Source: Methanohalophilus portucalensis
Lineage (GTDB): Archaea > Halobacteriota > Methanosarcinia > Methanosarcinales > Methanosarcinaceae
DNA length: 64,000 bases
Direction: 5' to 3'
Assembly (NCBI RefSeq): GCF_002761295.1
Contig: NZ_CP017881.1
Span: forward strand, 1,227,069 to 1,291,068
Shown: piece by piece, positions 51,829 to 57,310 of the stretch
Position numbering within the stretch: position 1 is the stretch's first letter
Layout of the letters: each line of letters begins with the position of its first letter
Position numbers and translations under genes: made by a program
The notes under the pieces: generated by a model
Seen by the model: only the letters and a program-made list of their open reading frames with translations
What the model was told of the DNA's origin: nothing
Database searches by the model: none

Positions 51829-51853
51829 GAATAAGGGTTAAATTGCCTTATTC
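51829..51853 (-). terminator. Stem-loop overlapping the stop codon of binding protein 1
   Basis: GAATAAGG, spacer, CCTTATTC form an 8-bp inverted repeat that includes the TAA stop at 51848-51850. On the minus strand a T run follows, making it a good intrinsic terminator or mRNA 3' end. Confidence 0.6.
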
Positions 51854-52726
51854 AGTTTCAAGCCATTCATTAACTCTGTCAGGATTGTTTTCGACCCATT
51901 TTGCAGCGGCTTCTTCAGCACTCATTCCTGCTTCAATGTCGGTCATTACGGTCTGTATCTCTTCGTGGTTATACTCTAAATTGCTGATGATTGCATAGAG
52001 TTCAGGTTTTTCTTCTTTGAGTCCATGTCTTGCAAGTGTTTCTATGTTATCGCCATCTCCATAGGCCTGCTGTGGATCATCCAGCATCTTCAGGTCATAT
52101 CTGCCGAATGCCCAGTGAGGTGTCCAGAGGGTGACAACGATTGGTTTCTCATCCCTGTAAGCACTATCAAGGGCAGATGCCATTCCAGCACTGCTGCTGG
52201 CTCTAAGTTCGTATTCCAGGTCATACATATCGATTGCATTTTCGGTATTGTGCATTATTCCTGCACCGGGATCAATACCGGTGATTTCAGCATTGAACTT
52301 CTCCTTGTTTGCATTCAGGTCTTCGATGGAATTAATATCTTCCATGTAAGTTGGTACTACAAGGCCGAGTTTGCAGTCTTCAAGATTTGGACCAACTCTG
52401 TCAACCTGGTCCCCATACTGTTCCCAGTAATTTGCCTGGGTTTGTGGAAGCCATGCACATGTGGTAAAGTCAAACTGGCCATCAGCAAGTCCCTGGTATA
52501 GTGGGCCTGCATCGACAGATATTATTTCTACTTCATACCCTTCCTGTTCGAGAACTTGCTTTATTACATTGGTATTTGCAATTGCATCATCCCACATTAC
52601 ATATCCGATAGTTGCTGATTTTTCTTCAGTGCCAGCACCTTCGTTTTCTTGCTGGGTACATCCGGCAGCAAAGAGGGAAAGCACTAACAATATTCCTATT
52701 ATAATCATTTTTAATTTATTATCCAT
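51848..52726 (-). CDS. Glycine betaine ABC transporter binding lipoprotein 1
   Basis: A 292-residue OpuAC/ProX-type binding protein. The lipoprotein signal ends FAAGCTQQ. Mature motifs are SATIGYVMWDDAIANTNVIK, ADGQFDFTTCAWLPQTQANY, GIDPGAGIMHNTENAID, ELRASSSAGMASALDSAYRD and VTLWTPHWAFGRYDLKMLDD, the last carrying Trp and His of the ligand cage. It binds glycine betaine or a similar quaternary amine outside the cell for osmoprotection. It is closely related to the protein at 54279 and belongs to a duplicated copy of the locus whose permease is decayed (52780-53221), so it must use another permease. Confidence 0.9.
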   Translation of the reverse strand: MDNKLKMIIIGILLVLSLFAAGCTQQENEGAGTEEKSATIGYVMWDDAIANTNVIKQVLEQEGYEVEIISVDAGPLYQGLADGQFDFTTCAWLPQTQANYWEQYGDQVDRVGPNLEDCKLGLVVPTYMEDINSIEDLNANKEKFNAEITGIDPGAGIMHNTENAIDMYDLEYELRASSSAGMASALDSAYRDEKPIVVTLWTPHWAFGRYDLKMLDDPQQAYGDGDNIETLARHGLKEEKPELYAIISNLEYNHEEIQTVMTDIEAGMSAEEAAAKWVENNPDRVNEWLETE

Positions 52727-52779
52727 ATTTTTCTATTCCTCCTTTCTTATTGGATAAAAGTAAAAAGACTGTTCAGGCC

Positions 52780-53221
52780 TTATTTGGGTGTAAGGTGCCG
52801 GGTCAGTCTGACAAGGACAATCGCTATAATCACAATACTGAGTCCTGCTTCGAATCCAACTCTGATACCTACTCGCTGGATTCATATCAATACGTTATAA
52901 CTCAGGCTACAGGCTTCGATCATGGAAGCAGTAACGACCATTGAAAAGGCCAGCATAATAGACTGGTTAACACCGGCCATTATACTCTTAAAAGCAATCT
53001 GGATATCTAGCTTCATAAGTTTCTGCCAGGACTGAGCCAAAAATATTGACAACCTCTACAAATTCTGTTGGTGCCTGTGTAATATTCAGGTTTAATAAGT
53101 AGGATTGCAGGACCAGTGCAGCAGATGTCATTACAGGCTCAATGGTTTTCGTGGATACTTCCACAGGTCCATTGTTACAATTAAAATATATCCAATGCCG
53201 GTACCTTAAGCGATTTTCCAT
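52780..53221 (-). pseudogene. Decayed betaine ABC permease gene
   Basis: The nucleotide sequence aligns with the intact permease at 55225-56055. From the common TGTAAGGTGC-type end, stretches such as CCTGCTTCGAATCCAACTC and GGTTAACACCGGCCATTAT are nearly identical, but frameshifts and stops break every frame. About 200 bp in the middle and the entire 5' part are missing. It lies between binding proteins 1 and 2 where a functional permease gene would be expected in the duplicated unit. Confidence 0.85.
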
Positions 53222-53253
53222 TTCTTCTTGGATATATGGAATCCCTGAACGTG

Positions 53254-53273
53254 ATGCTAGTTATTAAAGGTTG
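53254..53273. repeat. 20-bp direct repeat marking the duplicated betaine unit
   Basis: ATGCTAGTTATTAAAGGTTG is identical to 51702-51721, 1552 bp away. Both copies lie just beyond the 3' end of a binding-protein position, so they mark equivalent points of a tandem duplication. Confidence 0.8.
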
Positions 53274-53295
53274 TGGAATAATAAAAGAAAAAGGA

Positions 53296-53316
53296 AGTGA
53301 GGATTTTATCCTCACT
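53296..53316 (-). terminator. Stem-loop overlapping the stop codon of binding protein 2
   Basis: AGTGAGGAT, loop TTT, ATCCTCACT form a perfect 9-bp stem that contains the TGA stop (53312-53314). An A-rich tract on the plus strand gives T-rich RNA at its 3' side on the minus strand. Confidence 0.65.
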
Positions 53317-54205
53317 GAGTTCCAAGTACTTCATCATACTTTTCAGGATGCTCTGCAAGCCAATTTTGAGCTGCCTGTTCTGGCTCATTTCCTTCATCGA
53401 TAGCGATCATTATTGATTCGATATCATTAAGATCCATTTCATAGTTCTGGATAAGCTGGTAGAACTCTGGTCTATCCTCTTCAAAACCGGGTCTTGTGAG
53501 GATGACAAGGTTGTCACTTCCTCCATACACTCCTTTTGGATCTTCAAGGAATTGCAGGCCTTCCATACGTGCGAATGTCCAGTGTGGCCTCCAGAGGGTA
53601 GCTACGATCCATTCCTCATTGTCAACTTTGCCCTGAAGCTCGGCTGCCATTCCCACAGTACTGCTGGAAGATAATACATATTCTTCAAGGTTGTATTCCT
53701 CGAGGGCCTTCTCTGAGGTTATCATTATTCCTGCACCTGGTTCAATACCAGTGATTTTTCCATCGAATTTGCTGGCATTGCCTTTCAGGTCTTCCACGGT
53801 GGTAATTCCGGAATCATATACGTAGTCTGGAACAGCAAGTCCAATTTTAGCACCTGAGGATACAACCTGTGCCTTGTTCAGACTGTCTCCGTATTTTTCC
53901 CAGTAGGAAGCCTGGGTTGCAGGTAACCATGTGTGTATAAGGACATCGATGTCTCCCTGTGCAGTTGCCTGGTATAGACCACCGACATCTGCGGATACAA
54001 TCTCATATTCATGGCCTCCTTCATCAAGGATACCTGTGAATACATATCCTCCTGCACGCGAGTCATCCCACTGGATTAATCCAATTCGTACTGGTTCTTC
54101 TGTTGTTTCTTCTGTCGGGCCTTCTTCCTGTGATGTGCAACCTGCACCAATCAGGGCGATTGCTACCACAAAACATGCTAGCATTTTCAAAACATTATAT
54201 CTCAA
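53312..54205 (-). CDS. Glycine betaine ABC transporter binding lipoprotein 2 (diverged)
   Basis: A 297-residue OpuAC-type lipoprotein (signal ending LIGAGCTSQ) that differs clearly from proteins 1 and 3. It shares the plan RIGLIQWDDSRAGGYVFTGI, LIHTWLPATQASYWEKYGDS, GIEPGAGIMITSEKAL and ATLWRPHWTFARMEG, keeping the aromatic cage motif as WRPHW. The ligand may therefore be a different quaternary amine. It starts at TTG 54205, with GGAGTGATAG just upstream as the ribosome site. It lies directly downstream of binding protein 3. Confidence 0.88.
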   Translation of the reverse strand: MRYNVLKMLACFVVAIALIGAGCTSQEEGPTEETTEEPVRIGLIQWDDSRAGGYVFTGILDEGGHEYEIVSADVGGLYQATAQGDIDVLIHTWLPATQASYWEKYGDSLNKAQVVSSGAKIGLAVPDYVYDSGITTVEDLKGNASKFDGKITGIEPGAGIMITSEKALEEYNLEEYVLSSSSTVGMAAELQGKVDNEEWIVATLWRPHWTFARMEGLQFLEDPKGVYGGSDNLVILTRPGFEEDRPEFYQLIQNYEMDLNDIESIMIAIDEGNEPEQAAQNWLAEHPEKYDEVLGTQ

Positions 54206-54258
54206 GCTATCACTCCTTTTTGCATTTTATAAATATGGTTGGAACGATAAAAAAACAG

Positions 54259-54284
54259 GAATAAGGGTTAAATTGCCCTTATTC
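54259..54284 (-). terminator. Stem-loop overlapping the stop codon of binding protein 3
   Basis: GAATAAGGG, spacer TTAAATTG, CCCTTATTC form a perfect 9-bp stem that includes the TAA stop at 54279-54281; the minus strand continues into a T run. It sits between binding proteins 3 and 2. Confidence 0.65.
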
Positions 54285-55172
54285 AGTTCCAATCCATTCA
54301 TTAACTCTATCTGGATTGTTTTCAACCCACTTTGCAGCGGCTTCTTCGGCATCCATGCCGCCTTCCATATCAGCCATTACGGTCTGAATTTCTTCATGGG
54401 TCCAGTTGAACCTGCCGATGATTGCATAGAGTTCTGGTTTTTCTTCCTCGAGTCCCTGTCTTGCAAGGGTTTCTACATTGTCAGATTCTCCATAGGCCTG
54501 CTGTGGATCATCCAGCATCTTCAGGTCATATCTGCCGAATGCCCAGTGAGGTGTCCAGAGGGTGACAACGATTGGTTGCTCATCCCTGTAAGCACCATCA
54601 AGAGCAGATGCCATTCCAGCACTGCTGCTGGCTTCAAGATCGTAATCCAGTCCATACACATCGATTGCATCTTCTGTGTTCTGCATGATACCTGCACCGG
54701 GGTCAATACCGGTGATCTTTCCATTGAACTTCTCCTTGTTTGCATTCAGGTCTTCGATGGAATTAATGTCTTCCATGTAAGTTGGTACTGCAAGACCGAG
54801 TTTACAATCTTCAAGATTTACTGCAACTCTGTCAACCTGGTCTCCATACTGCTCCCAGTAATTTGCCTGGGTTTGTGGAAGCCACGCGGATGTTGTAAAG
54901 TCAAACTGGCCGTCTGCAAGTCCCTGGTAAAGTGGGCCTGCATCAACAGCGATTATTTCTACTTCGTAACCGGCCTGTTCAAGGACCTCTTTCATTACGT
55001 TGGTACTGGCAATTTCACCATCCCACATAACATAACCGATACTCGTGGTTTTTTGTTCATCTGCACCATTATCGGTTTCTTCACCTTCGTCTCCCTGCTG
55101 GGCACAACCAGCGGCAAAGAGAGAAAGCACTAACAAAATTCCTACTATTACTGCTTTATATTTATTATCCAT
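54279..55172 (-). CDS. Glycine betaine ABC transporter binding lipoprotein 3
   Basis: A 297-residue OpuAC-type lipoprotein (signal ending FAAGCAQQ) with the same motifs as protein 1: IGYVMWDGEIASTNVMKEVL, DFTTSAWLPQTQANYWEQYG, GIDPGAGIMQNTEDAID and VTLWTPHWAFGRYDLKMLDD. It follows the intact permease gene by 52 bp and is the core partner of the working transporter. High similarity to protein 1 marks the two as recent duplicates. Confidence 0.93.
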   Translation of the reverse strand: MDNKYKAVIVGILLVLSLFAAGCAQQGDEGEETDNGADEQKTTSIGYVMWDGEIASTNVMKEVLEQAGYEVEIIAVDAGPLYQGLADGQFDFTTSAWLPQTQANYWEQYGDQVDRVAVNLEDCKLGLAVPTYMEDINSIEDLNANKEKFNGKITGIDPGAGIMQNTEDAIDVYGLDYDLEASSSAGMASALDGAYRDEQPIVVTLWTPHWAFGRYDLKMLDDPQQAYGESDNVETLARQGLEEEKPELYAIIGRFNWTHEEIQTVMADMEGGMDAEEAAAKWVENNPDRVNEWIGTE

Positions 55173-55224: not shown

Positions 55225-56055
55225 TTACTTTGGTGTAAGGTGCTGTGTAAGCCTGTCAAGAACAATAGCGATTATGACAATTCCAAGTCCTGCTTCGAAT
55301 CCAACTCCTATATCAACCCTCTGGATTCCTATCAATACCTGGTATCCAAGGCCACGGGCTCCGATCATTGAAGCAATAACGACCATTGAAAGGGCAAGCA
55401 TTATACATTGGTTAACACCGGCCATTATTGTCTTTAAAGCTACAGGTATTTCGACCTTGATAAGTTTTTGCCATGAGGTTGAACCAAAAGCGTCGGCAAC
55501 TTCTACCAGTTCTTTGGGAACCTGTGTTATTCCAAGAGTTGTAAGCCTGATTGCTGGGGGCATGGAGAAAACAACGGTTGCAATCATACCCGGCACGTTA
55601 CCAAGTCCAAAGAAGATAACTGCTGGGATAAGGTAAACAAATGAAGGCATAGTCTGCATAAGATCCAGAATCGGTCTCAATATCCTATGAAGAGTCTCAC
55701 TCTTTGCTGCAAGTATACCCAACGGAATACCTATTATTAGAGCCAGTGCAGCAGACGAAATTACAAGAGCGATTGTTTCCATTGAATATTCCCACAGATC
55801 CATACTCAGTATAACTATGAATCCAAGGGCCGTGCCTAAAGCAAGTTTCCAGTCCTTTCGCCCAACTACGTATGCAATGGCTGCAATCAGCACAACAAAT
55901 AACAGAGGCGGCATTGCCATCAGTACATCTTTGAAAATATCAATGACAAACCCAAAGAGAGCACTGAATGCATCAAGGATGAAGCCAAAAGTATCACTTA
56001 TCCAGTATACTAAAGATTCGACAATGCTTCCTAGGGGGAGTTGTGGTACTATCAT
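55225..56055 (-). CDS. Glycine betaine ABC transporter permease
   Basis: A 276-residue ProW/OpuAB-type permease with six or more membrane helices and the EAA loop (VPKELVEVADAFGSTSWQKL then IKVEIPVALKTIMAGVNQCI). It is intact and of usual length, with the family N-terminal amphipathic part (ESLVYWISDTFGFILDAFSA). It overlaps the end of the ATPase gene by four bases. Confidence 0.93.
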   Translation of the reverse strand: MIVPQLPLGSIVESLVYWISDTFGFILDAFSALFGFVIDIFKDVLMAMPPLLFVVLIAAIAYVVGRKDWKLALGTALGFIVILSMDLWEYSMETIALVISSAALALIIGIPLGILAAKSETLHRILRPILDLMQTMPSFVYLIPAVIFFGLGNVPGMIATVVFSMPPAIRLTTLGITQVPKELVEVADAFGSTSWQKLIKVEIPVALKTIMAGVNQCIMLALSMVVIASMIGARGLGYQVLIGIQRVDIGVGFEAGLGIVIIAIVLDRLTQHLTPK

Positions 56056-57259
56056 TGTTCTACCTCCTCAACTTGCTCTTCATCCTCAGTGGTCTTAAGT
56101 GCAGCAAGGATACTGCCTCTGACGACCACACCTACAAGTTTGTCATTTTCATTAACAATCGCAATTGGCTGGTCAGTTTCCGCCCGGATGGATATGAGGT
56201 CTTGAAGTGGAGTATCGACTGTAGTTTTCGGGAATTCCTTTATGATTACATCTTCCATGGTCTTTCCGGCTTTCTGTGCTCGGACTGCATCATCGACTTT
56301 CAGGAATCCCTGAAGACGCTTGGCTTTATCCACTACGTATATGGAGGATATGCCATGCTTTTCCATGAGTTTCAGGGCAACTTGCAGACCGGATTTGAGT
56401 GATACAACCGGGTCAGGCCTCTTCATTACATTCTCAGCAGTAAGGATCTTTGTTTTGTCCACACCGGCAACGAACTTGGACACATAATCGTTCGCAGGGT
56501 TTGTGAGAATCTCTTCAGCAGTCCCGATCTGGGCAATTTCTCCATCTTTCATCAAGGCAATACGGTCACCGAGCTTGAGGGCCTCATCAAGGTCATGTGA
56601 TACGAAAACAATTGTTTTCTGCATCTTTTCCTCAAGTTCAAGCAACTCGTCCTGCATCTCACTGCGGATAAGCGGATCAAGGGCACTGAATGCTTCATCC
56701 ATTAAGAGGATCTCCGGATCTGTTGCAAGGGCTCTCGCAAGTCCGACCCTCTGCTGCATACCTCCACTCAACTGGGATGGTTTACTGAACTCATGTCCTT
56801 TCAGTCCAACAGTTTCGATTGCTACTGATGCCTTTTCATGTCTACCTCTTTTGAGAAATCCTGTATTTCAAGACCATAGGCAACATTATCGATGATGGTT
56901 CTGTGTGGCAAAAGGGCGAAATTCTGGAAGACCATGCTGATCTGTTTTTCCCTTATCAACCTGAGTCTCTCACTGGAGGCCTTTGTAACATCCTCATCGC
57001 CAATAGTTATCGATCCGGATGTGGGTTCAATGAGCCGGTTTAGGCAACGTAGAAGGGTTGACTTACCGGAGCCTGAAAGCCCCATAAGTACAAAAATTTC
57101 TCCTTCATACACATCAAAACTCACATTATACAGTCCTACGGTCTGGCCAGTCTTGTTGAAGATTTCATCTTTTGAAAGACCTTCTTCAACATAGGACAAA
57201 GCTTTCTTTGGATGCTTCCCAAAGATCTTTGTTAAGTTGCTAACTACAATTTTCTTCAT
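56052..57259 (-). pseudogene. Glycine betaine ABC transporter ATPase gene with a frameshift
   Basis: A ProV/OpuAA-type ATPase in two frames. The first part (57259-56822) has Walker [18 protein letters not shown] and the Q-loop [12 protein letters not shown]. The second (from about 56830 to 56052) has LSGGMQQRVGLARAL, Walker B ILLMDEAFSALD, VSHDLDEA and two C-terminal CBS domains, which sense ionic strength in this family. The break is at TTTT 56833-56836 (AAAA on the coding strand). One more A there would restore the normal [17 protein letters not shown] reading. Mutation, homopolymer sequencing error and slippage on A-AAA-AGG are all possible. All motifs are otherwise intact. Confidence 0.8.
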
Positions 57260-57310
57260 TCTTTCCTCAGAAATAAAAATAACCCCTTTTTTTTTAATAG
57301 GTTATTTAGT

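Follow-up and report, generated by a model that had tools for sequence, protein, structure and literature searches.

The importer locus and the break in its ATPase gene

The window analyzed here is a stretch of 64,000 nucleotides from the genome of Methanohalophilus portucalensis FDF-1T (CP017881, a single contig of 2,084,875 bp). It contains a set of linked minus-strand genes whose components, given in window coordinates from upstream to downstream, are as follows:

57272..57286, minus strand: leader of the ATPase gene, with a GGGG box and an ATT 8 nt on; the ATG at 57259 follows five codons after this ATT
56822..57259, minus strand: first piece of a ProV/OpuA-type ATPase, starting with the ATG at 57259, 145 residues, ended by a premature TAG at 56822-56824
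56844..56848, minus strand: the break, at codons 138-139, with 5 bases against 6 in five close relatives
56833..56836, minus strand: run of four A, equal in length in the five intact relatives and not the lesion
56052..56867, minus strand: second piece of the ATPase, in the -1 frame, with the remaining ATPase domain and the CBS region
55225..56055, minus strand: ProW-type permease, an open frame; its ATG (56053-56055) overlaps the ATPase TGA (56052-56054)
54279..55172, minus strand: OpuAC-type binding protein 1, an open frame with a profile match
53312..54205, minus strand: OpuAC-type binding protein 2, an open frame with a profile match
51848..52726, minus strand: OpuAC-type binding protein 3, an open frame with a profile match

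Judged by its gene content, this locus in its intact form encodes a ProV-ProW-ProX/OpuA-type ABC importer made up of a single ATPase, a single permease, and three binding proteins. Betaine is its likely substrate, considering the protein family and the literature on FDF1. The ATGA overlap between the ATPase stop and the permease start suggests that the permease is probably made via translational coupling. As the earlier note on this DNA had judged, the genes downstream of the ATPase look functional: the permease and all three binding-protein genes are open frames. Three consecutive OpuAC genes (51848-55172) stand behind the one permease, and seven other genomes of the genus have between one and three OpuAC matches genome-wide, one of them marginal. 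An OpuAC domain was also observed at L156 (G000:C1, around 1708930) inside an open frame of 2138 codons that is repeat-rich and, by eye, surface-protein-like.

The two ATPase pieces align in order to the NCBIfam ProV model NF007480, the first to positions 4-137 and the second to positions 144-393 of 400, and thus belong to one gene. By this alignment, the frame change sits near residue 138 of a single ATPase gene. Neither piece alone reaches the curated ProV cut-off. An ABC ATPase domain followed by a CBS region was found across the pieces taken separately (NCBIfam, Pfam), and the ProW permease and OpuAC binding proteins are linked to them. In its in-order model match and its ABC and CBS domains the gene resembles the ProV/OpuAA ATPases (NF007480 PRK10070; TIGR01186 proV), whereas it differs from them in that its frame is broken between the pieces. 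The interruption noticed earlier is therefore real: the frame ends at the TAG 56822-56824, and the remainder is open in the -1 frame from 56867 to 56052. The retention of ABC motifs and CBS domains was confirmed in part, since both kinds of domain are found across the pieces but only one CBS stretch scores above the Pfam cut-off. The individual ABC motifs in the pieces were read by eye.

In the five close relatives compared (M. mahii, M. halophilus, M. euhalobius, M. profundi, and strain RSK), the ATPase is a single open frame of 416-431 codons, and in alignments the frame is unbroken at the site of the break also in two more distant relatives (G037 and G003). The alignment of the second piece to its relatives starts directly past the break. 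The lesion had been placed in the A-run at 56833-56836; however, this run, CATGAAAAGGC, is identical to the window in all five intact relatives and is therefore normal. A codon-by-codon alignment instead shows the window to be one base short at 56844-56848, about ten bases upstream of the run, in a differing stretch that contains no long homopolymer. The codon directly before the break is AAA in the window only and AAG in each of the five relatives.

Departures unique to the window are concentrated at this place: there are three within nine bases at the break and none in codons 1-135. From codon 147 to the end, three further window-unique changes were found, all of them synonymous, with 0 amino-acid changes; these counts leave out codons 136-146 and codons at which the five relatives disagree. 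Compared with M. euhalobius, the window past the break has 26 synonymous and 5 amino-acid changes. By these comparisons, the second half of the gene has no sign of decay, and the small number of changes (3) dates the event only loosely. The clustering of three departures in nine bases suggests that a single compound event, and not slippage within a run, produced them. An origin of the odd 13 bases by templated copying of another genomic site was rejected, the only match in the genome being the site itself.

Across the family, the second ATPase piece was matched in 69 of 111 genomes at E <= 1e-70. Three of the 69 have an open frame of fewer than 380 codons, namely M. portucalensis (271), G060 (302), and G100 (347, a partial match). 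In G060, a member of a different genus within the family, the gene is independently broken by one base near residue 105 (locus L021, about 1,380-1,400). Breaks of this ATPase gene are thus sporadic and differ in place, as expected for ordinary mutation or for assembly error.

Origin of the frame change

We consider it likely that the ATPase gene deposited for FDF-1T carries a real and recent loss-of-function mutation, which is tolerated by the cell. Four observations favor this option, which had been among those listed in the earlier note: (i) the break is absent from the five close relatives, (ii) the sequence after the break is undecayed, (iii) the assembly is based on deep Illumina data, and (iv) other candidate importers are present. 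The gene resembles an ordinary strain-level frameshift pseudogene in having one small indel that is missing from its orthologs, intact neighbor genes, and no decay. It possibly differs from such a pseudogene in that its change is compound, combining a deletion with a substitution, and not a simple slip.

Codons 138-139, a place that we take to lie between the Q-loop and signature regions of the ATPase, would have lost one base net, accompanied by one or more adjacent substitutions. Translation would stop at the UAG after 145 residues. The resulting fragment would have Walker A and lack the signature and Walker B, and for this reason it should not hydrolyze ATP. Given the overlap of the permease ATG with the normal stop of the ATPase, the early stop would probably lower translation of the permease too. 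The importer would then be dead in the sequenced stock, in which the mutation may have arisen during culture. Such a mechanism is ordinary in kind.

Alternatively, the assembly or sequence may be in error at codons 138-139, in which case the strain would have an undamaged gene and a working importer. This reading agrees with those parts of the FDF1 literature that describe the BtaABC importer as active and expressed, with the undecayed state of the second piece, and with the packing of three departures from the relatives into nine bases. The assembly itself argues against it. CP017881 was assembled from Illumina MiSeq and HiSeq reads at ~5,300x, and PacBio was used for scaffolding (PMC5773736). 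The break does not lie in a long homopolymer; in particular, the suspected homopolymer error does not fit an A-run whose length is equal in the intact relatives, as the difference lies elsewhere and outside any long run.

Comparison of neighboring genes points in the same direction. In 224 kb including the window, one of 172 genes with an M. mahii counterpart looks frameshift-split in M. portucalensis, and this gene is the ATPase; in the reverse direction, two of the 172 look split in M. mahii. This survey was based on ORFs of at least 100 residues and matched stretches of at least 30 residues, so that splits near gene ends may escape it. Within the window, open reading frames of the relatives that appear split number 1/44 for M. 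mahii, 1/51 for M. halophilus, 2/8 for M. euhalobius (38.5 kb compared), 3/47 for M. profundi, and 2/48 for RSK. The ATPase is split against all five relatives, and the other four cases were seen against one relative each. The reverse comparison yielded two splits in M. mahii, four in M. halophilus, two in M. euhalobius, seven in M. profundi, and one in RSK; several of these derive from overlapping or wrong-strand ORF calls, which means that the window survey has false positives. The window contains no N bases. Both surveys and the lack of N speak against a generally error-prone assembly. Taken together, a sequencing error at the true site of the break is unlikely, and we would assign it only a minor share of the probability.

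Recoding, whether programmed or incidental, would yield the full-length ATPase if ribosomes shifted frame within the overlap, and slippage on A-AAA-AGG had been proposed as such a device. The frames do overlap by ~45 bases in the -1 relation, and a passage of PMC4928046 names BtaABC as phosphoproteins of FDF1T. Nevertheless, the A-run reads in frame as the heptamer G AAA AGG, and no frame-0 X-XXY-YYZ heptamer occurs anywhere in the overlap. Pseudoknot-free folding of 101 bases around the site predicted no stable downstream or stimulatory structure (z +1.15; 181 of 200 shuffled sequences fold equally well or better). Moreover, the shift is absent from all five close relatives, although they carry the identical run. 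Slippery-site recoding was therefore rejected on motif, structure, and conservation. The -1 frameshifting of fucA1 in Saccharolobus solfataricus, as described in a section of PMC8211752, likewise involves overlapping -1 frames in an archaeal gene, but there a slippery run of A and a putative stem-loop are described, and no equivalent of either was found at the break in the window; here, in addition, the shift is not shared by relatives.

Pyrrolysine read-through of the UAG was rejected as well, because a TGA follows six codons later and the remaining protein would not be rescued. According to one part of PMC4928046, pyrrolysine has been measured in an FDF1T protein. PMC8211752 is divided on this point: it denies Methanohalophilus a pyrrolysine system in one passage and, within the same section, counts M. 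mahii among the users. Overall, recoding in any form is highly improbable.

No more credence is due to a two-piece ATPase whose halves are made separately and then assemble: both pieces are open with their motifs kept, but no relative is split at the same place, and the second piece has no ATG, GTG, or TTG before the TTG at 56771, which lies inside the signature, so that a separately made product would miss the segment from the break to the signature.

Tolerance of the probable loss and the BtaABC literature

A recent loss of the importer, the reading that we prefer, would be tolerated because the cell makes betaine de novo and retains two BCCT carriers plus a second ABC importer of the osmoprotectant type. 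Passages of PMC3176816 and PMC5201303 state that FDF1 makes betaine from glycine, and PMC5201303 also mentions two BCCT-type open frames. We found two BCCT carriers in the M. portucalensis genome. The second ABC importer (~915,837-919,201; L158 2838-6202, G000:C1) consists of an ATPase, two permeases, and an OsmF-like binding protein and is OpuB/OsmF-like. Its intact ATPase, a member of the betaine/choline family at 917134-918261, limits the earlier statement that the broken gene is the only ATPase: this is correct within the locus and not genome-wide. The redundancy of the remaining carriers would follow from family similarity.

The ATPase of the second importer has matches in 48 of the 111 family genomes at E <= 1e-80, with 52-67% identity to the counterparts in the 47 other genomes. 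At the same threshold it was found in one of the eight genomes of the genus, that of M. portucalensis. The second importer would thus be either a recent gain or a lone retention in this species. The one genus member with a backup ABC system is also the one with a broken importer, which, as a single case, is no more than suggestive. In the genus member G033 (98% complete), we found no match to the window ATPase at the thresholds used, no BCCT carrier, and one marginal OpuAC match. G033 thus lacks a clear betaine importer, which indicates that the locus can be lost.

Strain FDF1 of M. portucalensis serves as a model of how methanogens use betaine in osmoadaptation. A review (PMC1224877) states that it imports betaine by the ABC importer bta, which is betaine-specific and induced by salt and heat. 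In the FDF1T phosphoproteome, BtaABC is described as phosphorylated; the database used was an in-house draft genome together with M. mahii proteins (PMC4928046). The window locus probably corresponds to the bta importer of the literature: the BtaABC described in parts of PMC1224877, PMC4928046, and PMC5201303 is a betaine-type ABC importer of the same strain, and one ProV-ProW-OpuAC locus of that layout was seen in the genome. The importer has been published as active and expressed, whereas the ATPase gene deposited in the window is broken.

The simplest resolutions of this conflict are that the sequenced stock has lost the gene or that the sequence is wrong. Since the literature ascribes active uptake by BtaABC to FDF1, it is plausible that the mutation is specific to the sequenced stock. 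If the BtaA phosphopeptides stem from beyond the break, the stock used for them differs from the sequenced one or the product is still made. Either the sequenced and laboratory stocks differ, or there is a sequence error at one site, or uptake in FDF1 would have to be ascribed instead to the BCCT carriers or to the second ABC importer.

A candidate AUU start codon of the ATPase

The leaders of the ATPase gene were compared across 69 loci (that of the window, L010-L038, and L167-L205), one per genome, among which 67 leaders are readable and two are truncated. An ATG, GTG, or TTG no more than 20 codons upstream of the conserved N-terminus is present in 36 of the 67 loci and missing in 31, and 30 loci have none of these codons in the whole open frame. 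By a hand count, 30 of the 31 leaders without such a nearby codon have an ATT (27), ATC (2), or ATA (1) located 7-8 nt after GGAG, GAGG, or GGGG, which resemble a Shine-Dalgarno box. This triplet is codon -5 in 18 loci, codon -4 in five, codon -6 in two, and codon -7 in five. An ATG or GTG occupies codon -5 in 26 of the 67 loci. Six loci (L033, L174, L182, L183, L193, and L195) have an upstream ATG plus an ATT or ATC and do not discriminate between the two. The sole exception among the 31 leaders is L176.

In the L176 leader, the A-run exceeds that of the related L036 by two bases, which places the usual start out of frame; this may reflect start-site variation or a sequence error. An in-frame TAG occurs between the candidate start and the N-terminus in three of the 30 loci (L030, L032, and L169); it could be read as pyrrolysine at codon 3, or the start may lie elsewhere. 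The related loci L033 and L183 have CAG or TCG at the place of this TAG.

Across the 13 loci with ATT at codon -5, variation in codons 0-6 is 0.033, 0.011, and 0.264 by codon position, a coding pattern that makes it probable that translation starts no later than codon 0. In codons -4 to -1 of the 13 loci, the corresponding values are 0.115, 0.096, and 0.115, with no clear coding pattern. In four of six Methanohalophilus sequences, ACG stands at the site of the ATG found in the window and in M. euhalobius. We lean toward the view that much of this ATPase family starts at a conserved, non-canonical AUU (rarely AUC or AUA), and that M. portucalensis (at 57259) and M. euhalobius gained their ATG later. 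The in-frame TAG of three loci and the values for codons -4 to -1 count against this view. No report of AUU starts in archaea was found among the full-text literature matches listed. If true, a conserved AUU start would matter more than the frame break itself, and the broken ATPase is a practical note for the betaine literature on FDF1.
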